From positions 62,001 to 126,000 of the forward strand of contig JAPOZO010000060.1 of NCBI GenBank assembly GCA_026706025.1: a stretch of 64,000 nucleotides of DNA, read 5' to 3'. Positions 3,170 to 58,086 of this stretch are shown in pieces. A program made the position numbers and the translations under genes. A model generated the notes under the pieces. The model was given only the letters and a program-made list of their open reading frames with translations. It did no database searches and was not told where the DNA came from. Each line of letters opens with the position of its first letter. Positions within the stretch are counted from its first letter, which is position 1. The stretch is from Candidatus Poribacteria bacterium. GTDB taxonomy: Bacteria; Poribacteria; WGA-4E; WGA-3G.

Positions 3170-4603
3170 GTGCAAAGCAACTTTCATCAGATAGAATCCG
3201 ATTTACTTAAAACAATCCTTGTCATCGTGGCAATGGTGGTGGGGTTTTCGATTTCCGATGCAGCAGACCCGGTTGCCGGACACTGGGAGGGACAGATTGA
3301 GATTCCCGGTCAACCCATCGCCGTAAAAATTGATCTCACTATCAACGACAGTGGCTGGAGTGGAACTATCGACATTCCAGCACAAGGCGCGAAGGGATTA
3401 CCACTGTCTGATATCCTTGTTGTGGAAGAAGATAGTGGTCTGCGCGTCAAATTCTCAATTCGCGGCGTGCCGGGGAATCCAACCTTTGACGGGAAACTGC
3501 AAGACGGTGCCATCAGTGGTACATTCAGCCAAAGTGGTGCTACATTCGGATTCCGTCTCTCCCGTGATATTGTCGTCAAGGATCCCGCAAGACCACAAGA
3601 ACCAAAACCGCCGTTCCCTTATAAAATCGAAGAGGTAGCCTTTCAAAACGGTACAGTCAACCTTGCGGGGACTTTGACGTTACCACAAGGTGACGGTCCG
3701 TTTCCTGCCGTGCTCCTCATCTCCGGTAGTGGCTTGCAGGATCGAGACGAGACGTTGGTTGGTCACAAACCGTTTTGGGTGCTTGCCGACCATCTGAGCC
3801 GTGCAAGTATCGCTGTACTCCGTGTAGACGATCCCGGTATCGGTCAGTCAACGCCGCATCCGAAACCGCCAACGACAGCGGACTTCGCAACGGACGTAGA
3901 AGCAGGCGTGGCATTCCTTAAGAAAGATGACCGTATTAATCGTATCGGATTGATCGGTCACAGCGAAGGCGGTCTCATCGCAGCCATCGTCGCCAGTCGC
4001 AGCAATGATGTCGGCTTTATTGTACTGATGGCAGGTCCCGGTGTTCCTGGTGCCGAGTTGTTGCGTAAACAGAACGAACGTATTTTTGATGCAGCGGGAA
4101 TAGCGGGTGAGCGTAAACAGAATTTACTAACGCTCCTCGATCAGTTGTTTACAATCTTGACTTCAGAAGATATCGCGGAAGACGAACGGCAACAAGGGGT
4201 CAATGAAATTGTACGCAAGCAGCTTGAAATTAACGGTGTTCCGCAAGCACAACAGGACGAGACGTACGTACGGGCACTCGCGGAACAGTCACTTACCCCA
4301 TGGATGCGCTATTTCTTGACTTTTGATCCACGCCCTGCGTTTGAGAAAATCCGAGTGCCTGTCCTCGCGCTGAACGGTGAACTGGATGTACAGGTTGATG
4401 CCGAACAAAACCTCACGGCTATCGTCGCAGCTCTCGAAAAAGGCGGTAATCACAAAGTTACTGTGCATCGCCTGCCGGAACACAACCACCTCTTCCAACG
4501 CGCGCGTACAGGTTTGGTAAACGAGTACGGTGCCATTGAAGAGACGCTTTCACCGATGGTATTGGACTTAATTCGAGACTGGATATTGTCAGTAACGCAC
4601 TGA
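3170..4603 (+). CDS. Exported alpha/beta hydrolase with N-terminal beta domain
   Basis: A 477-residue exported hydrolase. Residues 1-31 form a signal peptide (ISDAADP). Residues 35-135 are a beta-rich domain (GHWEGQIEIPGQPIAVKIDL). An alpha/beta hydrolase of the dienelactone hydrolase/esterase type fills the rest. The nucleophile elbow is GHSEGG with Ser265; Asp406 (GELD) and His440 (EHNH) fit the rest of the triad. This arrangement is known from secreted esterases and peptidase S9-like hydrolases; the substrate cannot be told. The start is GTG at 3170, chosen because ATAAGGA overlaps the stop of the LamG gene just upstream, which suggests translational coupling. Confidence 0.85.
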   Translation: MQSNFHQIESDLLKTILVIVAMVVGFSISDAADPVAGHWEGQIEIPGQPIAVKIDLTINDSGWSGTIDIPAQGAKGLPLSDILVVEEDSGLRVKFSIRGVPGNPTFDGKLQDGAISGTFSQSGATFGFRLSRDIVVKDPARPQEPKPPFPYKIEEVAFQNGTVNLAGTLTLPQGDGPFPAVLLISGSGLQDRDETLVGHKPFWVLADHLSRASIAVLRVDDPGIGQSTPHPKPPTTADFATDVEAGVAFLKKDDRINRIGLIGHSEGGLIAAIVASRSNDVGFIVLMAGPGVPGAELLRKQNERIFDAAGIAGERKQNLLTLLDQLFTILTSEDIAEDERQQGVNEIVRKQLEINGVPQAQQDETYVRALAEQSLTPWMRYFLTFDPRPAFEKIRVPVLALNGELDVQVDAEQNLTAIVAALEKGGNHKVTVHRLPEHNHLFQRARTGLVNEYGAIEETLSPMVLDLIRDWILSVTH

Positions 4604-8170: not shown

Positions 8171-9604
8171 ATGTACTTCAAGAAGAAAATTATATTGACG
8201 TTTCTGGGTAGTATCATTTTAGCCATAGCAACAGGCTGCATCACTGATACTACCAAACAACCTAATCAACCTTCAAAAATATCGAACTTGAAGCGTACCG
8301 ATACAGACCGGAAACTGGAGCGCACTAAGGCGTTTACATCAAATCTACCGATCATTATTATTGATACATCTGGAAACTGGATTCGCGACGAACCGAAAAT
8401 CGAGGCACAAATGAAGATTATTTACGATGAATCCAGCGGTAGAAACACCCTAAATAGTCAGCATATTGATTTCGAGGGGAAAATCGGCATAGAATTGAGA
8501 GGAAAAACTTCGCTCGGATTCCCGAAAAATCAGTACGGCGTAGAAATTCAGGACGATGAAGGCAACGACAAAGATGCATCGTTATTGCAACTGCCAGCCG
8601 AGTCGGATTGGGTTTTAAACGGACCCTATTCGGATAAAACCCTCATGCGAAATCATTTGGCGTACGAGTTCAGCAATCGCATCGGCAGATACGCAAGCAG
8701 AACAAAGTTCGTTGAATTGTTTCTCAATGAGAGCGGTGACACAATAACCGAAAACAAACATTACGTTGGGGTCTATCTACTCATAGAAAAGATTAAGCGC
8801 GGAAAAGATCGTGTTGATATTAAACCGCTGAAACCCGCGGACATCACCGGCGGTTATATCCTAAAAATCGATAAAACTGACAGGTATGAAACTTATTTCT
8901 TTACCCGTACCGGCACACGGTTGTTTCATGTATATCCGAAAGGACACGAGATGTCCTTCGACCAAAAAGCGTGGATTCAGAACTATATGGGCGAATTTGA
9001 AGCGGCATTAGCCGGAAAGGACTTTAAGGACCCAGAACGCGGATATGCTAAGTACATTGATATAGATGCTTTTATCGACCATTTCATCATCAATGAACTT
9101 TTCAGGAACATAGACGGATTTCGGAACAGCACATATATGTACAAAGAAAGAGACGGTAAACTGACAATGGGACCCGTCTGGGATTTCAACTTATCAATGG
9201 GCAATTCAAGTTTCAATCAGGGATGGAAAACGGATGGCTGGCTGATTTATACAAACCATGTCCCCTTTTGGTGGGATCGACTCCTACAAGACGCAAATTT
9301 CAGGCAAAAACTCGTCAAGCGATGGCAGACGCTTCGGAGAGATGTACTCGCCACTTCTAAACTCCTTGATGAGATTAATCGAACTGCCGAGTATCTATCC
9401 GAAGCACAGAAACGGAATTTCCAGAGATGGCCCGTGCTGGGTCGCCGTGCCTTCGGTAATCCTACACGGGGTCTACCTACATATCAACAGGAGGTCCAAC
9501 AGATGAAAAAATGGTTACAGGATCGGTTGAAATGGATGGATGAGCATATCGCATCACCACGTTCATCTATTTTTAGCACCGGGAGACTAAGACGTTTCCG
9601 ATAA
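8171..9604 (+). CDS. CotH-family protein, lipoprotein
   Basis: A 477-residue protein with a lipoprotein signal (ATGC, lipidated Cys23) followed by a CotH domain: GIELRGKTSLGFPKNQY, then AESDWVLNGPYSDKTLMRN, YVGVYLLIEKIKRGKDRVDI, GGYILKIDKTD and GPVWDFNLSMGNS. These are the conserved blocks of the CotH family, whose members include the Bacillus spore coat kinase. The invariant lysine and the Asp of the DFNLS block are present, so protein kinase activity is plausible, but the family also includes structural members. Export to the outer membrane or periplasm is inferred from the lipobox. It stands alone, 68 bases after the three-module glycosidase and 298 bases before the MoxR cluster. Confidence 0.83.
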   Translation: MYFKKKIILTFLGSIILAIATGCITDTTKQPNQPSKISNLKRTDTDRKLERTKAFTSNLPIIIIDTSGNWIRDEPKIEAQMKIIYDESSGRNTLNSQHIDFEGKIGIELRGKTSLGFPKNQYGVEIQDDEGNDKDASLLQLPAESDWVLNGPYSDKTLMRNHLAYEFSNRIGRYASRTKFVELFLNESGDTITENKHYVGVYLLIEKIKRGKDRVDIKPLKPADITGGYILKIDKTDRYETYFFTRTGTRLFHVYPKGHEMSFDQKAWIQNYMGEFEAALAGKDFKDPERGYAKYIDIDAFIDHFIINELFRNIDGFRNSTYMYKERDGKLTMGPVWDFNLSMGNSSFNQGWKTDGWLIYTNHVPFWWDRLLQDANFRQKLVKRWQTLRRDVLATSKLLDEINRTAEYLSEAQKRNFQRWPVLGRRAFGNPTRGLPTYQQEVQQMKKWLQDRLKWMDEHIASPRSSIFSTGRLRRFR

Positions 9605-46611: not shown

Positions 46612-47124
46612 TTAGAAATAGGCATGTATACCCGTCCCCACGTAGACACCAGCTAGACCTTTGGATCCAGAGTCGGTTTCCTCCGTACCAAACCCCTGAC
46701 CGACTTCCACGTTCAAGCCGAGCGGTATCCCACCAAGTGAAAATACAAGCTCCCCGCCAAAGGCGATTCCACCGCCTAACCTCGTCGTGAGGAGATCCTT
46801 CCTTTTTTCGTACTGCCACGCACCCTCTAAGGTGAAATAGAGTCGAGATATGTTCCACCTGCTTTGATGCTCGAAGATGGCATACGAAATGCCCGCACCT
46901 AACATGTGATCGCTATCTTGATCACTGAGGATAAAACGTCCAACGGTCTGAAGATATACCGGTGCCAGTCCGGTATAGCGGAAACTAATTCCACCAAATG
47001 TCGGAGTCGCGCCTTGGAGTCCGATACCGAAATTTTTCGTGAGATCCGTTCCTTGTGCTTGCGCTGAGAAACTTAAAGTTATTCCGAAAAAGATACTGGT
47101 GAGATAAAAAGTCAAGCGTTTCAT
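46612..47124 (-). CDS. Small outer-membrane beta-barrel-like protein
   Basis: A 170-residue protein with a signal peptide (cleavage near AQAQG, about 24). The mature part alternates polar and hydrophobic residues in about eight strands, with Gly-rich turns, and ends in Tyr-Phe, the C-terminal aromatic that signals outer-membrane barrel assembly. It resembles OmpW/OmpX-sized barrels or conserved hypothetical exported proteins; no specific family is recognisable. AAGGAGA precedes the ATG at 47124. It lies downstream of the FG-GAP gene at 47197 (72 bases) on the same strand and may be co-transcribed with it. Confidence 0.6.
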   Translation of the reverse strand: MKRLTFYLTSIFFGITLSFSAQAQGTDLTKNFGIGLQGATPTFGGISFRYTGLAPVYLQTVGRFILSDQDSDHMLGAGISYAIFEHQSRWNISRLYFTLEGAWQYEKRKDLLTTRLGGGIAFGGELVFSLGGIPLGLNVEVGQGFGTEETDSGSKGLAGVYVGTGIHAYF

Positions 47125-47196: not shown

Positions 47197-48864
47197 TCAT
47201 TGAGCGATCAGCAGTGCCACCCGATGCGGATCAGTAGTGGACGGATAATATATAAGGAGGTCCTGCTTGTTGTCCTTATTGAGGTCCACCAGTCGAGCGT
47301 TTTGTTCGTTGTTAGGCATAGCAACTGCCACCTTTTGAGGTGTCCGTGCTAACAGTTCTGGTCCCGGTACACCGAGAAAGACGTGCAACTCTTTCCAGTT
47401 CTTTCCAACCAATAAATCTGAGCGTCCGTCACCGTTCACATCGCCAAGCAGTAGGACTGGAAAGAAGACCTTATCTGTCTCGAAGAGATCTAAGTTCGGC
47501 CTGATTTTACGAATAGTAGCGGGTTTGTGGGAGTGCCTATCGCCTCCGATGCGATAGAATTCGAGATCTATTGCAATCGACTTGCCGAGCATCGCCCGGC
47601 TCATCCCAATAAGCCCAGTCTTTACGTCCTTGAAAAGAATGTCGGTCTTACCATCTCCATCAAAATCTTGGAACCACTGCGACGAATAGCCCCACGGCTG
47701 CAACCCGCCAGCGGTCCCTCGCGGTCGAATTGTCGTACTGACATCCCGCGCGAACACCGTTCCATCCGGTGTTGACGTGCCGAAATGCACTTCGTACAGG
47801 CTACGCTGTTTCGCAAGACTTCGTCCTTCTAACGCGTGGATCACCAAATCAGCAATATTGTCGCCGTTCAGATCTTGGAACGTGTGCAGCACCCGCCGCT
47901 TCGTGTTCTCTCTGAAGCCGAACATGAGCGAGAACATATTCTCGTCCTTGAAATCAAAAGCGATCGAATAGGCACCGTCAGTGTCAAATGGGATGTCAAC
48001 AGCGAAGGTTTTCGCCGCCGAGGAAAACATCCCGCGAGCATCCTGACGGTAAACGTCAAAATGATCCGCGTTCCAGAACACGAGATCGCCGCGTCCATCT
48101 TGGTCGTAGTCTATCTGGTGGATACGACTCAGATACCAATGGACAGTTAAGGGCGTTATCCCTACCTCGCGGTAACTGCGAGTATCGTCCAAGGCAGTCT
48201 CGTCGAGAAAGGGGTCGGGCGGTCCGAGTTTTATCGGGTTAGTGAATGAACCATCGCGCAATTGCGTGGCTATCCAGAAGCCATCAATGTCTGGAACTAC
48301 TAAGTCGTCAAGACCGTCACGATTTACGTCTCGACTGATGTCAACATAGGGGATCCCACTTTCACCCGTCGCGTTGTAGTTCGTAGTGACTTTGACCAAT
48401 ACACGTTCCACCGCCGAATCCGGATCAAACCAGTTCAGACGACCCTGCTCGTAGGTGATTAAGCGATCGCGCCCACCGATGTTTGCGACATCAACGAACA
48501 ACACTTTAGAACGCAGCGGCGCGTCAAGTTCGGATACCCAAGTGCCCTCACTGAACGCGTAAATGTGCAAGTGTCGGTTCTTATTTTTATCTATATTTAC
48601 CACAGCAAGTTCAGCGAAATCTCCACCAAGAAAAAACCCTGTCAAAACCGTCTGGTGTTTCGCTGTGCCGGTGACAACCTCGTGCTGCCCGAAAGTAAAT
48701 TCCGTGGCAGTGTGCTGTATCGGAGCAGCACCTTTGCCAAACAGACCTGAGCATCCCGATAGAAAGACACTAAAAGCCAGTATAGAGAGCAGACTTCGTC
48801 GAGAATGTCGTGTGCACTCAGCTGCGGAAATCCAGCGTTTGCGGGATGCGTTTCGCTTTTCCAT
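47197..48864 (-). CDS. FG-GAP/VCBS-repeat propeller lipoprotein
   Basis: A 555-residue protein with a lipobox LSGC (Cys38) after a hydrophobic segment and a beta-propeller of FG-GAP repeats carrying calcium-binding loops: DVNRDGLDDL, DYDQDGRGDL, DLNGDNIADL, DFDGDGKTDI, DVNGDGRSDL, DLNKDNKQDL. Such propellers bind ligands or other proteins at the cell surface. The start is ATG 48864 with AAAGGAGGA upstream; the frame is open to 48882. The promoter carries a candidate TetR operator shared with the paralogue and the tetR gene. It sits just upstream of the outer-membrane-protein gene. Confidence 0.82.
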   Translation of the reverse strand: MEKRNASRKRWISAAECTRHSRRSLLSILAFSVFLSGCSGLFGKGAAPIQHTATEFTFGQHEVVTGTAKHQTVLTGFFLGGDFAELAVVNIDKNKNRHLHIYAFSEGTWVSELDAPLRSKVLFVDVANIGGRDRLITYEQGRLNWFDPDSAVERVLVKVTTNYNATGESGIPYVDISRDVNRDGLDDLVVPDIDGFWIATQLRDGSFTNPIKLGPPDPFLDETALDDTRSYREVGITPLTVHWYLSRIHQIDYDQDGRGDLVFWNADHFDVYRQDARGMFSSAAKTFAVDIPFDTDGAYSIAFDFKDENMFSLMFGFRENTKRRVLHTFQDLNGDNIADLVIHALEGRSLAKQRSLYEVHFGTSTPDGTVFARDVSTTIRPRGTAGGLQPWGYSSQWFQDFDGDGKTDILFKDVKTGLIGMSRAMLGKSIAIDLEFYRIGGDRHSHKPATIRKIRPNLDLFETDKVFFPVLLLGDVNGDGRSDLLVGKNWKELHVFLGVPGPELLARTPQKVAVAMPNNEQNARLVDLNKDNKQDLLIYYPSTTDPHRVALLIAQ

Positions 48865-48893
48865 GTTTATCCTCCTTTCCAATTTTCATTACA

Positions 48894-48924
48894 TTAACAT
48901 AGATAAATAAATGAACAGTGTTAA
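48894..48924 (-). promoter_or_regulatory. Promoter and TetR-type operator of the FG-GAP lipoprotein gene
   Basis: On the minus strand TTAACA, a 17-nt spacer and TATGTT form a sigma-70-like promoter. The -35 lies in the operator TTAACACTGTTCA (48912-48924, one change from the 13-bp palindrome TTAACACTGTTAA). The whole 31-base block is almost the same as at 50701-50731. Confidence 0.6.
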
Positions 48925-48952
48925 CATACAAGCAAAAAAATAAGCAATAGAT

Positions 48953-50671
48953 TTATTGGGCGATCAGTATCCTCACTCGATGCGGCTCAGTTCCGGGAGG
49001 CTTTCTCGGGGCACCGTGAGCATCTCGTAACGTGAATGGGTGATGCATGAGGATATCCTGCACCCCGTCCTTGTTGAGGTCAACCAACCAGGTGTACTCC
49101 TCATCGTTGGGAGCAGCGATCGCCACTCTCTGAGGCTGCTGAGCGAATATTTCCGGTCCCGGCACACCGACAAAGACGACCATGATCCGCGGGTGATCCG
49201 CGAGGAGCAGGTCTGAGTGACCGTCGCCGGTCACATCCCCGATGCGTAAAGTCGTGTTGAACGCGCGCGGGTACTTCTTTTCAGTGTTTCGGCTCTCGTG
49301 CGTCGCTCCGCGAAGCACGATGTCCAGTGGCACCCACCCCGGTTCGCGATGGCTCGGCACACCATCCAACGCGATTCCGCGGGTGGTGTTGGGTCTGTCG
49401 GGATAACGGTCTCCTTCCATTTGGTAGAATTCGAGACCCAGCCCGACATCATCACCCATGAACCCCTTGATGCTCTTCCAGAGACTACCATGGAGGTGCT
49501 CAAGATCAATGGTTGTGATCATCAGATCGACCTTGCCATCGCCATTGAAGTCCTGCCGGTCCATCCCAAGCTGGATTCTTTCGTCCGACTCGAACGCGAT
49601 GTTAACATCTTGTCCGAACACAATGCCGCCATTTGGTGCTGGCGCGCCGAAATGTACTTCGTAACTGGAGTGCTTGTTGGAGATATTCTTGCCCGAAAGT
49701 TTGAAAATCACCAAGTCGGCGACACCGTCGCCGTTCAGGTCTGCCAACGAGTGCAGCACCCTCCCTGTCATATCTCCGGCGGCGAGTAAGGAGAGCCGGT
49801 CCGAGTCGAATGCCACATCGATCGTGAAGGTCTTGGTCCTTGAGGTAAACAGGCCTCGCTCGTTTTGGAGATGAACCTTGAAGTGGTCCTCGTTCCAGAA
49901 CGCCAAGTCAGTACGACCATTTCTGTCGTAGTCAATTTCGTGAACACGGCTCTGAGACCAAGGGTCGTATCGATATCCATCTGCACCGCGGATCCTCGCC
50001 ATTTCGGTGGATGGACCAATCTTCACCTTCTCGGCGAACGTACCGTCGCTCATCTGAATGAACACCCAGAAGCCATCAGAGTCCGGCACCACCAAGTCAT
50101 CACGAGCATCTCCATTCACGTCCCGAGTGATGTCCACATGCGGGATTTCGCCGCTGCGAGGCGGCTTGAAGTTGGAAGCAACCACCACCAATGGGCGTTC
50201 CGTTGCCGAGTCGGGATCAAACCAGTTCAACCGACCCTGCTTGTAGGTGATTAAACGATCGCGTCCACCAACGTTTGCAACATCAACAAACAACACTTCA
50301 GAACGCAGCGTTGTGTCGACTTTCGGTACCCAAGTGTTGTCGCCGAACGCGTAGATGCGCAAATGCTGGTTGTCGTTCTCGTCGATGTGCAGGACAGCAA
50401 GTTCAGCGAAATCACCATCAAGCAGGAATCCCGTCAAAACCGTCTTGCGTTTCGCAGTACCGATTTTGACTTCATACTGCTCGAAAGTGAATTCCGCGGT
50501 AGCAGGCATCGTCTGTTCGACCGCTTCGCCAAGCAGACCTGCGTATCCGGATAGAAGGACACCAAAAACCAGTATAGAGAACAGGTTTCGTCGGAACTGC
50601 CCTATGCGTCCGGCTACTGAGCCTGGCTTTGCGGAAAGAAAGCGTTTGTTGGATAGGTTTCGCTTTTTCAT
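48953..50671 (-). CDS. FG-GAP/VCBS-repeat propeller protein, paralogue that lost its lipobox cysteine
   Basis: A 572-residue paralogue of the gene at 47197 with the same layout: N-terminal hydrophobic segment, then FG-GAP repeats with calcium loops (DVNGDARDDL, DYDRNGRTDL, DLNGDGVADL, DFNGDGKVDL, DVTGDGHSDL, DLNKDGVQDI). Where the paralogue has LSGC, this one has LSGY (Tyr43, codon TAC instead of TGC, at 50543-50545), so it cannot be lipidated there and may stay anchored by the signal segment or be released. AAAGGAGAC precedes the ATG at 50671. The promoter and operator match the paralogue; the tetR gene ends 107 bases upstream. Confidence 0.82.
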   Translation of the reverse strand: MKKRNLSNKRFLSAKPGSVAGRIGQFRRNLFSILVFGVLLSGYAGLLGEAVEQTMPATAEFTFEQYEVKIGTAKRKTVLTGFLLDGDFAELAVLHIDENDNQHLRIYAFGDNTWVPKVDTTLRSEVLFVDVANVGGRDRLITYKQGRLNWFDPDSATERPLVVVASNFKPPRSGEIPHVDITRDVNGDARDDLVVPDSDGFWVFIQMSDGTFAEKVKIGPSTEMARIRGADGYRYDPWSQSRVHEIDYDRNGRTDLAFWNEDHFKVHLQNERGLFTSRTKTFTIDVAFDSDRLSLLAAGDMTGRVLHSLADLNGDGVADLVIFKLSGKNISNKHSSYEVHFGAPAPNGGIVFGQDVNIAFESDERIQLGMDRQDFNGDGKVDLMITTIDLEHLHGSLWKSIKGFMGDDVGLGLEFYQMEGDRYPDRPNTTRGIALDGVPSHREPGWVPLDIVLRGATHESRNTEKKYPRAFNTTLRIGDVTGDGHSDLLLADHPRIMVVFVGVPGPEIFAQQPQRVAIAAPNDEEYTWLVDLNKDGVQDILMHHPFTLRDAHGAPRKPPGTEPHRVRILIAQ

Positions 50672-50700
50672 TTTAGTCTCCTTTCGGGTTTTCCGTATGT

Positions 50701-50731
50701 TAACATAGATAAATAAGTTTACAGTGTTAAG
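50701..50731 (-). promoter_or_regulatory. Promoter and TetR-type operator of the second FG-GAP gene
   Basis: On the minus strand TTAACA, a 17-nt spacer and TATGTT, with the -35 in TTAACACTGTAAA (50719-50731). It differs from the block at 48894-48924 at only a few positions. A further TTAACA half-site (50701-50706 on the plus strand) lies near the -10. Confidence 0.6.
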
Positions 50732-50777
50732 TTATAGACGAAAAAATATATTTGGCTTTCACCAAATAGTTTTGAAT

Positions 50778-51383
50778 CTATGCCTTTAAACCCTCAATTG
50801 TTGTGTGAATTACCGTGTCAATTAATTTATCTTTCTCTGTCCAAGGAAAATCGGGAAAATCAATTAGGAGCAGTGTGACACCGTGAACCGCTGACCACAT
50901 GACCTGACCGGTAGTCTCGACATCTACTTGGCGAAATACCTGCTGCCGAATGCATTCAGAAACCATTTCACGCAAATAATCAAACACTTTTTCGCCAACC
51001 GATCCCTCTTCCAGACCTAACCCCTTCTGGAACTGCGGACGGATAACAAACGTGAGTTTATAATCTTGTGGATATTTCAGACCGAACTCGACGTATGCTC
51101 GCCCACTTTTTCTCAGCGTCTCGACCGGATCGCTTATATTACTTTTTAGCTGCTCAAGCGTGTTTAGCAGGTTCAGGAGTGTCTCCTTGCAAACGGAATC
51201 TAAAAGATCTGCTTTGTCCGTAAAATAGAGATAGATCGTCGTTGGTGAATATTCGATCTTGTTGGCAATCTTTCGCATGGAGACGTTCTCATAGCCTTCA
51301 TTGACAAACAACTCTCGCGCCGCAGAAAGAATTTGTTGTTGCAACTGTTCTTTTTCCCTTACTCTCCGTTCTTTTATGCCCAT
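50778..51383 (-). CDS. TetR-family transcriptional regulator
   Basis: A cytoplasmic repressor of 201 residues. The N-terminal helix-turn-helix follows the TetR pattern (ILSAARELFVNEGYENVSMR, then KIEYSPTTIYLYFTDKADLL, about 18-62); the rest is the ligand-binding helical domain. The ligand is unknown. A 13-bp perfect palindrome lies in its own promoter and near copies lie before the two FG-GAP genes downstream on the same strand, so it probably represses itself and them. AAAGGTG precedes the ATG at 51383. The Hfq-like gene diverges from it 264 bases away. Confidence 0.92.
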   Translation of the reverse strand: MGIKERRVREKEQLQQQILSAARELFVNEGYENVSMRKIANKIEYSPTTIYLYFTDKADLLDSVCKETLLNLLNTLEQLKSNISDPVETLRKSGRAYVEFGLKYPQDYKLTFVIRPQFQKGLGLEEGSVGEKVFDYLREMVSECIRQQVFRQVDVETTGQVMWSAVHGVTLLLIDFPDFPWTEKDKLIDTVIHTTIEGLKA

Positions 51384-51415
51384 TACTTCACCTTTTATTT
51401 ACAAAGTTATTTAAC

Positions 51416-51428
51416 TTAACACTGTTAA
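51416..51428 (-). promoter_or_regulatory. Palindromic operator in the tetR promoter
   Basis: TTAACACTGTTAA is a perfect inverted repeat around one central base. Read on the minus strand, its TTAACA is the -35, with TTTGTA 17 nt further on as the -10, so a bound repressor would block polymerase at tetR. One-mismatch copies lie at 50719 and 48912. Confidence 0.65.
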
Positions 51429-51646
51429 TTATATCATACGTTTTTCCTTTTGTCAAATTTTTTTTGAAAAATTTTTCCACCCGTGCGTTTTTCAGACGAG
51501 CTTTCCGTAAACAATGTTATTTTCTCTTCAATTATTTCGTCTACCTTGCTATGATTATTACATTCAGACTTTCAATAATATTGAGATGACAAATTAGGTT
51601 AATACCTTGCAAGGATTTTGTTTTATTTTAAGAAGACACAAAAACG

Positions 51647-52147
51647 ATGAAAACACAACAACAACTCACATCCATGGCAGAAAAACAGAGCATCCATAAC
51701 CCGTATTCAGAACAATACCTTTTGACGCGAACCTTTCAAACCGATCAGTCGCTTGTGAGATTGATAACGTATGACGGTATTCGCGATGAGCGAGTACGAA
51801 AAGTTACCCAGTACAATCTTTTGCTCGCTGGCGCGTCGCCACTGCCCAAATTGGAAGTCCTGCTGGTATTCTCGGTGGAAAACGCCAGACGCTTTTCACC
51901 GTATCTGCAAATCCACGAAGGTGTCAAAGATTTAGGGTTGAAAGCCGTGAAGAAAATAGCAGAACGCCGGTTGGTGGATATGCGGGTCGCTGTCGGGGAT
52001 GCAGTCGCGATTACGCTTCGCAACGCCATCGCGGTCCGCGGTATCTGTCAAGGGTTCTCGAAATATAACATGGTACTTGATATACGCGGTGAACTCCTGC
52101 TTGTCTATAAGCACGGGATCTACACTTTTGAGAAAAATCCGTATTAG
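51647..52147 (+). CDS. Hfq-like protein with C-terminal Sm domain
   Basis: A 166-residue soluble protein. Residues 112-164 match the Hfq/Sm fold: an Sm1-like strand pattern (AVAITLRNAIAVRGICQGFS) followed by LLLVYKHGIYTF, close to the Hfq Sm2 signature YKHAIST. The N-terminal half has a second, weaker Sm-like pattern (RLITYDGIRDERVRKVTQYN), so the protein may hold two Sm modules, unlike the usual single-domain Hfq of 70-100 residues. A role in small RNA or mRNA binding is likely by family, not proven here. The ATG at 51647 has only a weak GAAGA upstream. It diverges from tetR; the palindrome at 51416 is over 200 bases away. Confidence 0.65.
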   Translation: MKTQQQLTSMAEKQSIHNPYSEQYLLTRTFQTDQSLVRLITYDGIRDERVRKVTQYNLLLAGASPLPKLEVLLVFSVENARRFSPYLQIHEGVKDLGLKAVKKIAERRLVDMRVAVGDAVAITLRNAIAVRGICQGFSKYNMVLDIRGELLLVYKHGIYTFEKNPY

Positions 52148-54042: not shown

Positions 54043-57000
54043 TCACACTGCTTTGATAACCACAATCGTCATATCGTCGTTCTGCTGAGCGTCACCAGAA
54101 AAATCACGGACATCGCTAATAATCGCATCTATCACCGCTTCTGCGCTCACTGTTTCGTCCATTCCTTTGATAAGATCAACTAAACGGTCAGCCTCCATAT
54201 AGAATCGGTCAGGGTTATGCCTTTGAGGTGCTTCAGCAATGCCATCGCTGAAAAGGATAATCGCATTCCCAGGTTTTAGGTCAATAGGGGGTGTTTCTTG
54301 ATATTCAGAAAATCGAAAAGCACCCAATGGTGTTCCATCTATCGGAAGTTCTTCAACATCGTTTTCACGATGTTTGATAATAGGATAAGGGATTCCGGCG
54401 TTGGCATATCTAAACGTCTTATCCGTTGGGTCAATGGTCAATATCGCCATCGCACAATTGGTGTATCTTTGAAATCGAGGATAAAGATTTTGGTTCAGTG
54501 CCTGCAACATTTGAGATGGAGATACCCCCGACTTCGCTTCTGAATGGAGCACCCCAGAAGATAGAACGGCATTCATTGCGCCTTTCATACCTTTGCCGGT
54601 AACATCTGCCAACACAATGGCGAGCGTGCCGTCGCTGAGATGGATATAGTCAAAAAAATCCCCACTGACGGTGCGGGCGGAGATGCAAACGCCTGCAACC
54701 TCAAGTCCTGGAACTTCAGGTGCGGTTTGCGGTATCAACCCCATCTGCATCTCTTGTGCATCAGCGAGTTCGGAAACTGCTTCCCGTTGATAGGCTAAAA
54801 CCTGTTGACGCTGGTGGTAATAGCGGTAGACAAGAATACCACAAAACAACAGTAAAACCACAATCGCGCCACCTAAAGGATAGAGAATCCATCCATTTTG
54901 GTGCCACGGCAATACAACTGTCAACGTCAGGTTTGCAGGAGCAGAGTAGTTTAGGTCTCGGTCAATCGCAACGACCTCAAAAGTATAAGTTCCCGGTTTG
55001 TCAAAACTGATGTTGAACGTATCCGATAGTGTCGGTTTGTGCCAATCGGAGTCAATCTCTTTGATGCGAACCCGATACTGTCGTTTTTCTTTCACGGTTT
55101 TGAAGTCAATACTGCTGTACTGGATAGTTACACGCGTATTGGTGGTAATGTCTTCGATTGTCTCAAGAGAACCAGTTTGTGCAGATGTTTTGTGGGTTTG
55201 AACTGAAACGATACGCACACGCGGTGGAACCCGATTCGGATTGTATTGGGTCACCCCATCAAACGTTGCAAACCAGAACCTCCCCTCCGAATCTTGGCAA
55301 ATTCCCAAAACCCGATTACCTATGAGTCCATCTCGTGTATCTAAAGATACCCATGAGGTGCCATCATATTGAGAGACACCACCGCTGAACGTTCCAATCC
55401 AGAGAGATCCCTCTTCGGCCTCGTAAATTGAGGACACATCGTTTTGTACGAGTCCATCATGGGTCGTGAAATTAACAAGTTGATCGCCATCATATCGAAA
55501 GACACCGCTGCCTCGGGTTCCAAACCAGAGGAATCCTTCTCGGTCTTGATGGATCGCCCATACAGAGTCGGATGCAAGTCTGGCATTAGTCGTAAAGTTG
55601 ACGAACTTTTCACCATCATATCGGGAGACACCGCCACCCCGGATTCCAAACCAGAGGAATTCTTCTCGATCCTGATAAATTGAGATGACATCATTGTGTG
55701 TGAGTCCGTCATCAATAGTGAAGTTGACGAACTTTTCACCATCGTATCGAGAGATCCCACCACCGGTTGTTCCAAACCAGAGGAATCCCTCTCGGTCTTG
55801 ATGGATCGCCCATACGGAGTTAGAGGCGAGTCCGTCATCGGTAGTAAAGTTGACGAACTTTTCACCATCGTATTGGGAAACACCACCGCTGTTTGTTCCA
55901 AACCAGAAGGCTCCCTTTTGATCCTGATAAATTGAGATGATGTCATTTTGTGCGAGTCCATCATCGGTTGTAAAGTTGATAAACTCATTGCCATCATATT
56001 GACTAATTCCGCTGTCTGTTCCGAACCAGATGGATCCCTCCCAGTCTCGGTAAATTGTGTAAATAGTGTTGCTCACAAGACCATCAGCAGTAGTGAAGTT
56101 AATAAATCCGCTGCTATCGTATTGGCTGATTCCGTCACCCGAGGTTAAAAACCAGAAGCCCCCTTCTCTGTCTTGAAAAATATCCCATATATGGTTAGAT
56201 GCGAGGCCATCAGTGGTAGTGAAGTTGACGAACTTTTCACCATCATATCGAGAAACACCACCACCGTTTGTTCCAAACCAGAGGAATTCATTTCGGTCCT
56301 CATGGATCGCCCAGATAGAATTGTGAAGGAGTCCATCAGTGGTTGTAAAATTAACAAACTGATCATTATCGTATCGAGAAATTCCGTCGTTTGTTCCGAA
56401 CCAGAGGAATCCTCCTTGGTCTTCATGGATCGCCGGGACAGTATTGTTAGCGAGGCCATCAGTGGTAGTGAAGTTAACAAACTTTTCGCCATCGTATTGA
56501 GAGATGCCACCGTTTGTTCCAAACCATAAGTGTCCGTCTCGGTCTTGGTGGATCGCCAAGGTGTAGTTAGATATAAGTCCATCGTCAATAGTGAAGTTAA
56601 CAAACTTTTCGCCATCGTATTGAGAGATGCCATCGCTTGTTCCAAACCATAAGTGTCCGTCTCGGTCTTGGTGGATCGTCAAAACAACGTTAGCTACAAG
56701 TCCATCGTCGGTAGTGAAGTTGACGAACTTTTCACCATCATATCGAGAGACCCCATACTCCAAGGTACCGAACCATAAAAATCCGTCTCGGTCTTGGTGG
56801 ATTGTCCAGACAGAGTCACCTGCAAGTCCATCGTCGGTGGTGAAGTTGACGAACTTTTCACCATCATATCGAGAGACCCCCCCTGTGTCAGTTCCGAACC
56901 AAAGGAAACCCTCCCGGTCCTGATAAATCCTCCGGACATGGTTATGTCCCAATCCATCAAGGTAAGTATAGTGCTTCCATGTCCCATGTTTGAAAGGTGG

Positions 57001-58086
57001 AAAACGAAAATCTATATTAACCGTATTTTGTAGGTCAACAGGGACGATTATACTTGACTTATCGTTAGGCGTGTCCCAGGTGTGGCAACGTATTTGATAC
57101 GACCCAGCAATCAGGTTGGTGAATTGATACCTACCTCTGCTGTCTGAGAAAGTCGTTGCTCTCCTTTGACTGACACCATCCCCTCCGATCAAAATTGCCT
57201 CCACAAGAACACCAGCATTTGGGGTATTATTGTCAAGTGCCAATACGTTCCCTGAGATACTAATAGCCTTCCCTAAAGTCATGTTCATTTTCGCACGATC
57301 ACCTGCAGAAAGTTGGACTCCTATTTCCCAATTACCTTTATCTCCATGGGTGGCTTGAATATCATAGTGTCCACTTGCTGGATAGACTGAAAACTGGTAA
57401 AAGCCTTCGGCATCAGTTTCTGTTTTGGCGATCATAGTGCTGCCCTGCCATAGGTGCAGGGGGACATTGGCTAAGGTCTTTCCCGACGCATCGGTAATGA
57501 TCCCGGTTATCACCGCACGTGTCGGTGGAAGCACACGCGTTGTTAATGCCCAATTCCCCAACCCGTTTGAGACCTTTATCAGGCAGCGGTTTTTACCCTG
57601 ACGCAATGAAACAGGAACCCTATCTTCATCCGCAACGAGCGGCCTTCTAACTATTTGCGTGTGTACCCTTTGATCGTTCAGAAAAACCGCGACGCCATCA
57701 TCACTGCCAACAAGGATTTCTCCGTCGCCATCCATATTGCTTTCCAGCAGGCAGAACACATAGCAAACCGCTTCTCGATGATTTCCAACGGCATCAAGCA
57801 AATTGACGATGCTTCCTTCGGAGCGATATACCGTCCACGTCAAGGTTTCTCCTTCAGAAGTGGTCACTGTATCGCCGGGTTTGGGATTAGCAGAAGCCTC
57901 GCCGTTAGCAGACGCGAGGAAATCGGTCTCCAAATCCTCTGGGAAAAAGGGACCTAACACCAGCCATTCTTTGATGAACGTGCCATCAACGGGGTGCGTT
58001 GGGACATTATCTTGAGCGTGTGCAACGGTAACGTAGAGACTGAAGAAAACAAGAATCCAACACCGTGCAGAAAAGAGGTTATGCAT
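54043..58086 (-). CDS. Propeller sensor with PP2C/SpoIIE-type phosphatase (Reg_prop, Y_Y_Y, phosphatase)
   Basis: A 1347-residue membrane sensor. Signal peptide (cleavage near VAHAQ, about 25); a PA14-like beta domain (about 30-190); two carboxypeptidase-regulatory-like beta domains (about 190-350); fourteen Reg_prop blades (about 375-960), each like GVSRYDGEKFVNFTTDDGL, enough for two seven-bladed propellers; a Y_Y_Y domain (about 970-1040); one membrane helix (about 1055-1080); a short coiled-coil linker; and a PP2C/SpoIIE phosphatase (about 1105-1345, with SGDFFDYI, ADVTGKGMKGA and LFSDGIAEA metal-site blocks). Output is thus Ser/Thr dephosphorylation, not a histidine kinase. The partner is unknown. 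CCGGAGAA precedes the ATG. The sigma-type promoter motif lies at 58153. Confidence 0.9.
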   Translation of the reverse strand: MHNLFSARCWILVFFSLYVTVAHAQDNVPTHPVDGTFIKEWLVLGPFFPEDLETDFLASANGEASANPKPGDTVTTSEGETLTWTVYRSEGSIVNLLDAVGNHREAVCYVFCLLESNMDGDGEILVGSDDGVAVFLNDQRVHTQIVRRPLVADEDRVPVSLRQGKNRCLIKVSNGLGNWALTTRVLPPTRAVITGIITDASGKTLANVPLHLWQGSTMIAKTETDAEGFYQFSVYPASGHYDIQATHGDKGNWEIGVQLSAGDRAKMNMTLGKAISISGNVLALDNNTPNAGVLVEAILIGGDGVSQRRATTFSDSRGRYQFTNLIAGSYQIRCHTWDTPNDKSSIIVPVDLQNTVNIDFRFPPFKHGTWKHYTYLDGLGHNHVRRIYQDREGFLWFGTDTGGVSRYDGEKFVNFTTDDGLAGDSVWTIHQDRDGFLWFGTLEYGVSRYDGEKFVNFTTDDGLVANVVLTIHQDRDGHLWFGTSDGISQYDGEKFVNFTIDDGLISNYTLAIHQDRDGHLWFGTNGGISQYDGEKFVNFTTTDGLANNTVPAIHEDQGGFLWFGTNDGISRYDNDQFVNFTTTDGLLHNSIWAIHEDRNEFLWFGTNGGGVSRYDGEKFVNFTTTDGLASNHIWDIFQDREGGFWFLTSGDGISQYDSSGFINFTTADGLVSNTIYTIYRDWEGSIWFGTDSGISQYDGNEFINFTTDDGLAQNDIISIYQDQKGAFWFGTNSGGVSQYDGEKFVNFTTDDGLASNSVWAIHQDREGFLWFGTTGGGISRYDGEKFVNFTIDDGLTHNDVISIYQDREEFLWFGIRGGGVSRYDGEKFVNFTTNARLASDSVWAIHQDREGFLWFGTRGSGVFRYDGDQLVNFTTHDGLVQNDVSSIYEAEEGSLWIGTFSGGVSQYDGTSWVSLDTRDGLIGNRVLGICQDSEGRFWFATFDGVTQYNPNRVPPRVRIVSVQTHKTSAQTGSLETIEDITTNTRVTIQYSSIDFKTVKEKRQYRVRIKEIDSDWHKPTLSDTFNISFDKPGTYTFEVVAIDRDLNYSAPANLTLTVVLPWHQNGWILYPLGGAIVVLLLFCGILVYRYYHQRQQVLAYQREAVSELADAQEMQMGLIPQTAPEVPGLEVAGVCISARTVSGDFFDYIHLSDGTLAIVLADVTGKGMKGAMNAVLSSGVLHSEAKSGVSPSQMLQALNQNLYPRFQRYTNCAMAILTIDPTDKTFRYANAGIPYPIIKHRENDVEELPIDGTPLGAFRFSEYQETPPIDLKPGNAIILFSDGIAEAPQRHNPDRFYMEADRLVDLIKGMDETVSAEAVIDAIISDVRDFSGDAQQNDDMTIVVIKAV
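55240..56965 (-). repeat. Tandem DNA repeat encoding 14 Reg_prop blades
   Basis: Units of about 120-126 bases repeat 14 times in frame (blade pattern YDGEKFVNFTTDDGL...HQDREGFLWFGT). Units differ by scattered changes, so the array is mostly old, but several neighbours are near identical and could recombine. Confidence 0.8.

Follow-up and report, generated by a model that had tools for sequence, protein, structure and literature searches.

The question raised by this locus is whether a single TetR-family protein controls, through one shared operator, both its own gene and the neighboring genes for two FG-GAP repeat proteins, and what the operator consists of. The locus lies in a 64,000-nt stretch of Poribacteria DNA, here called the window, and contains four genes:

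50778..51383, minus strand: tetR, TetR-family repressor of 201 aa with TetR_N and TetR_C_33 domains (Pfam)
48953..50671, minus strand: FG2, exported FG-GAP repeat protein (beta-propeller type) of 572 aa (PF13517, 7.3e-18)
47197..48864, minus strand: FG1, FG-GAP repeat lipoprotein of 555 aa (FG-GAP domain match)
46612..47124, minus strand: orf170, predicted 8-stranded outer-membrane beta-barrel (structure model)

The tetR product matches the N-terminal TetR_N helix-turn-helix in Pfam (PF00440, E 2.3e-15, 56.5 bits against a cutoff of 24) as well as the C-terminal ligand and dimerisation domain TetR_C_33 (PF13305, E 6.4e-9, 36.8 bits against a cutoff of 26.8). TetR orthologues in Poribacteria are 83-95% identical. 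None of the named TetR subfamilies (FadR, FasR, ScbR, RutR, AcrR, BetI and others) came above its NCBIfam equivalog cutoff, the best being FadR with 47.3 bits against a cutoff of 200. FG1 and FG2 are paralogues that are 51% identical. For FG1 we use the ATG at 48864, which has GGAGG upstream, instead of the TTG at 48882 given in the ORF list. The FG1 lipobox reads LSGC while in FG2 the cysteine is replaced by a tyrosine (LSGY); many relatives have LSGC or LSSC. FG2 may thus go without lipidation, and because its lipobox cysteine is missing the two proteins may differ in location. Folds closest to the FG structure model (mean pLDDT 70) include lectins of propeller type and integrin alpha chains; as the TM-scores are low, only the propeller class should be read from this. 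For orf170 two of five models were good (best pLDDT 84) and depict an 8-stranded barrel whose nearest neighbors are OmpX/OmpW/OprF-type barrels, with E above 0.001. This gene has no operator of its own and is probably co-transcribed after FG1. The models and predicted signals of FG1, FG2 and orf170 point to an exported and outer-membrane function.

We also note several features around these genes. Divergent from tetR, at 51647-52147 on the plus strand, is a gene for a protein of 166 aa with an Hfq match in its C-terminal part (PF17209, E 6e-7); an Hfq-like gene adjoins tetR in some relatives only (L013, L027, L031, L038). Inspection by eye of the 1347-aa protein encoded at 54043-58086 on the minus strand suggests numerous propeller-type repeats like those of two-component regulators and, in the C-terminal part, a resemblance to a SpoIIE-type phosphatase. 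In the related locus L020, two ORFs that look like IS transposase halves (8670-9571) lie between FG1 and orf170.

A preliminary description of this DNA had reported a perfect palindrome, TTAACACTGTTAA, at tetR with one-mismatch copies before both FG genes, and had treated this 13-bp sequence as the whole operator. The palindrome is indeed present at 51416-51428, with 6-bp arms and one center base, and the copies lie on the minus strand at 48912-48924 and 50718-50730 (the latter had been placed at 50719, one base off). Allowing up to two mismatches, the window holds six matches to the 13-mer against 1.33 expected, a level reached in 0 of 100 shuffles. Alignment of the tetR promoters and FG promoters of Poribacteria relatives revealed, however, that the conserved unit is 31 bp long and that the 13-mer is only its left half. 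The window contains three copies of this unit:

51398..51428, minus strand: predicted tetR operator, 31 bp, TTAACAGTGTTAAGTTAAATAACTTTGTAAA, with palindromes at 51416-51428 and 51398-51410
50700..50730, minus strand: predicted FG2 operator, 31 bp, TTAACACTGTAAACTTATTTATCTATGTTAA, containing the possible promoter TTAACA-17-TATGTT
48894..48924, minus strand: predicted FG1 operator, 31 bp, TTAACACTGTTCATTTATTTATCTATGTTAA, containing the possible promoter TTAACA-17-TATGTT

From the near edges of the 13-bp palindrome and its two copies to the respective ATG codons the distances are 32, 46 and 47 nt. The element is composed of two tandem 13-bp palindromes with the consensus TTAACANTGTTAA and with centers 18 bp apart. 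Its full consensus is TTAACAGTGTTAAGTTAAATnACTnTGTAAA before tetR (35 sites) and TTAACACTGTTAAnTTATTTATCTATGTTAA before FG genes (45 sites), the information content being ~1.7 bits per column within the 31 bp versus 0.5-0.6 in the FG flanks, and no random sequence of the size of the window scored comparably. A search for an RNA element gave no Rfam match. Operator positions 25 and 29 differ between FG and tetR sites; we considered this difference as a -10 signature, but dyad symmetry also accounts for position 29.

Searching the genome for further sites, as had been proposed, gave an outcome that depends on which unit is used: judged by its frequency, the 13-mer fails this check and the 31-mer passes it. 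With up to one mismatch the 13-mer occurs 14 times, no more often than its reversed control (14), and it was rejected as the operator unit on this ground. Full 31-bp sites, in contrast, occur exactly three times in the 6.3-Mb genome, all at the tetR/FG2/FG1 locus (E 1e-7 to 1e-6 under the sequence model), with the fourth-ranked match to the element model at chance level (E 0.39). The window's own genome has none of the unlinked extra sites that are present in some relatives.

We then placed the element relative to the promoters, for which three further features are needed:

51451..51456, minus strand: tetR promoter -35, TTGACA, 12/12 together with the -10, spacer 17 nt
51428..51433, minus strand: tetR promoter -10, TATAAT, overlapping the operator by one base
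50749..50768, minus strand: candidate tetR terminator hairpin TATTTGGTGAAAGCCAAATA followed by a T-run, just before the FG2 operator (read from the sequence)

The same hairpin occurs in relatives, but it is absent from the terminator-scan list, which makes the assignment a weak one. The preliminary description had assigned TTAACA and TTTGTA as the -35 and -10 of tetR; these are replaced by the 12/12 match TTGACA-17-TATAAT at 51456-51428. All of the 35 tetR-type promoters that we compared keep this arrangement, with a mean match of 11.5/12 and a 17-nt spacer without exception, and in them the operator begins between one base inside and two bases after the -10. With the promoter at 51456-51428, the tetR palindrome overlaps the edge of the -10 and the start site and not the -35, and the operator would extend, at the usual spacing, from about -7 to +24. 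An operator over the -35 of all three genes, as was claimed, is therefore incorrect for tetR, where it sits at and after the -10, and is no more than plausible for the FG genes. The TTAACA-17-TATGTT arrangement is present before both FG genes as described, and scores only 9/12; seven such matches were found against 4.9 expected by chance. A fairly conserved TATAA[C/G] abuts the FG operators and lacks a recognisable -35 (the best pair upstream scores 7.4/12 versus 8.7/12 for the pair in the operator). TTAACA-17-TATGTT is thus the best FG promoter candidate, with TATAA[C/G] a plausible alternative -10.

Whether the element belongs to this TetR can be judged from its distribution. In 34 related Poribacteria loci it precedes tetR and nearly every leading FG gene. 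Among 73 genomes of the order, counted plainly and uncorrected for shared ancestry, the site is present in 42 of 42 that encode a TetR orthologue, 29 lack both, and in two a site occurs without TetR. In one of these two (G049) the contig begins 72 bases before the site; in the other, the complete genome G026, TetR has been lost and one site stands before a truncated FG remnant. This latter locus (L110, 5116-5392), with its retained operator and an FG gene that breaks off at about residue 71, is a relic of the system. Two genomes (G002 and G053) have the FG gene start within 50 bases of a contig end, so they were not judged. Relatives without TetR often keep FG and orf170, and 18 of 18 such loci are without the site, their best score being 14.8 versus 47 for the window sites. 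In loci L034 and L036 (about 3200-3430 and 5956) the tetR gene now lies downstream of orf170, and its former place retains a tetR-type operator, 84 bases before the FG operator.

More distant TetR homologues, 26-42% identical, were collected from Clostridium, Sedimentibacter, Bacillus and other Firmicutes (loci L046-L063). They were gathered partly via the peptide KIANKIEY of the DNA-binding domain, a selection that accounts in part for their similarity in this domain; the DNA motif played no role in it. Of 16 Firmicutes tetR promoters, 14 contain a perfect AACANTGTT, against an average of 0.12 and a highest count of 2 in 300 null runs; a second palindrome usually accompanies it, with 18 bp as the favored spacing. 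In L050, where tetR is the second gene of an operon, a perfect copy of the palindrome precedes the first gene, which is flavodoxin-like. The genes downstream of the Firmicutes homologues encode mainly flavodoxin/FMN-binding proteins or DUF6544 proteins, which are unrelated to FG. Because Firmicutes keep the motif with different targets, the motif goes with the TetR and not with the FG genes.

Taken together, we consider it highly probable from these sequence comparisons that TetR (50778-51383) is an autoregulatory repressor that acts via the 31-bp tandem operator on tetR, FG2 and FG1-orf170. We infer binding, repression, a two-dimer mode, a ligand and the exact FG start sites as follows. A pair of TetR dimers would occupy the operator, the strong left site first and the right site probably cooperatively. 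At tetR, where the operator runs from the last base of the -10, bound TetR would keep RNA polymerase from initiating or from clearing the promoter. At FG2 and FG1-orf170 the operator would span the whole candidate core promoter TTAACA-17-TATGTT and RNA polymerase would be blocked. A putative ligand bound by the C-terminal domain would free TetR from the operator, and this release would yield the two exported FG-GAP proteins, the outer-membrane barrel and more TetR.

The part of this scheme that is most readily questioned is the number of dimers. A single TetR dimer could bind the left 13-bp palindrome only, as BioQ does, with the right half kept as promoter or leader sequence. Such an arrangement would fit the near-perfect left palindrome (5.6 of 6 pairs) next to a degenerate right one (3.2-4.0 of 6), and the right half does double as a possible -10 in the FG genes. 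At tetR, however, the right half is conserved at 1.5-2.0 bits at TGT and the flanking bases though no promoter element is located there, and the Firmicutes promoters independently favor a second palindrome at exactly 18 bp. We regard a single dimer as rather unlikely, and binding by two dimers, for which the geometry speaks, as the most likely mode.

The element might instead be the operator of another regulator, the neighboring TetR being a bystander or a co-target, since TetR-family genes are in general known to be sometimes under the control of others. This we find improbable, as all genomes with this TetR have the site while FG genomes without TetR do not, and as the same motif geometry recurs at the promoters of homologous Firmicutes TetRs that have different neighbors. 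Since the site follows this TetR from genome to genome, the TetR very likely acts as the repressor. The earlier proposal of an autoregulated TetR with an operator common to three promoters is thus strongly supported by the 73-genome co-occurrence, by the site-free FG loci of TetR-less relatives and by the Firmicutes homologues. Some TetR-family proteins are activators (FasR, by annotation), and TetR could in principle activate the FG genes while repressing itself; the position of the operator, on the candidate core promoter of the FG genes and on the start site of tetR, is however typical of repression (PMC9210681), which makes activation very improbable. The least probable reading is that the 31-bp similarity reflects a shared or duplicated promoter with no regulatory protein, for although FG1 and FG2 are paralogues and some relatives have decayed tetR copies that include a promoter, the tetR and FG sites have the same symmetric bases in different promoter contexts, conservation falls sharply beyond 31 bp, and relatives without TetR have no element.

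In addition to the locus itself, some relatives have copies of the operator elsewhere. G008, G010, G058 and G067 have an unlinked site with TTGACA-17-TATAAT in front of a gene for a polysaccharide deacetylase (PF01522, with E 2.4e-33 for one family member) and, in G010 at least, of a 175-aa lipoprotein-like gene as well. In G012 and G054 an operator and a decayed tetR start stand before the polysaccharide deacetylase gene. G065 has a copy of the FG locus without tetR that carries a decayed tetR remnant, and G054, G069 and G029 have second loci in which tetR is present only as fragments and both operators are kept. Decayed tetR starts after extra operators were detected in L104, L114 and L111 (0 of 200 shuffles) and were not found in L102, L103, L112 and L118. 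In all of these loci except L111, a polysaccharide deacetylase gene is preceded by an unlinked operator with a tetR-type promoter, and the decayed tetR start of L104 and L114 is situated between operator and gene. The simplest reading of these sequences is that the locus was duplicated and the spare regulator lost, with its promoter and operator retained. A decayed extra tetR would in this way leave a promoter-operator that drives the next gene. The targets gained in Poribacteria would be the FG-GAP proteins, the outer-membrane barrel and, in some genomes, the unlinked polysaccharide deacetylase. More broadly, a single TetR lineage may have preserved an operator code of two 13-bp palindromes 18 bp apart in both Poribacteria and Firmicutes even as its whole target set was exchanged, with the Poribacteria surface regulon growing by tetR-FG duplication and decay of the extra tetR; we consider this history about as likely as not.

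These results define from sequence a regulon of one repressor, one 31-bp operator and three promoters in an uncultivated phylum whose gene regulation has been little studied. Although the organism is uncultured, the site is open to tests with purified protein. Since the targets are surface or exported proteins and the phylum is known from marine sponges, a host or envelope signal is a possible inducer. The system is of interest for its clean natural controls and for the change of targets between phyla, and the relatives illustrate by what route an autoregulated unit, local at first, can come to include unlinked genes. Our literature searches found no paper on the TGAACAGTGTTCA site (shorter forms gave no useful TetR match), none that connects TetR with flavodoxin and FMN-binding genes in Clostridium, and none that connects FG-GAP with Poribacteria. 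As far as we found, the regulator, its site and its targets are undescribed, and the mechanism is an ordinary one for the TetR family.

Among characterized regulators the likeness is to the type with an operator of about 28-32 bp that has room for two dimers, here 31 bp with palindromes 18 bp apart. QacR of Staphylococcus aureus binds as a dimer pair to the 28-bp IR1 operator at -6 to +21 of qacA (PMC9210681), a long palindromic operator over the transcription start comparable with about -7 to +24 of tetR here. It differs in operator sequence, in having a single long inverted repeat and in controlling an efflux pump instead of exported FG-GAP proteins and a barrel. In Corynebacterium glutamicum, CgmR places two dimers on a 32-bp operator and RolR two dimers on a 29-bp operator with two palindromes, one of them TGAAC-N4-GTTCA (PMC9210681). 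RolR acts as a roadblock far downstream and on resorcinol genes, whereas both palindromes here follow one consensus at a fixed 18-bp spacing. DarR binds overlapping palindromes as a dimer-of-dimers (PMC10636190). The BioQ palindrome of C. glutamicum, TGAAC-N3-GTTAC (13 bp, PMC9210681), is close as an operator sequence to the Firmicutes TGAACAGTGTTCA and to TTAACANTGTTAA here; BioQ, however, uses one 13-bp site and one dimer at biotin genes, while the sites in this genome are only at tetR, FG2 and FG1. The same palindrome pair and spacing in the regulator's own promoter are shared by the uncharacterised Firmicutes TetR group, which has other genes downstream.
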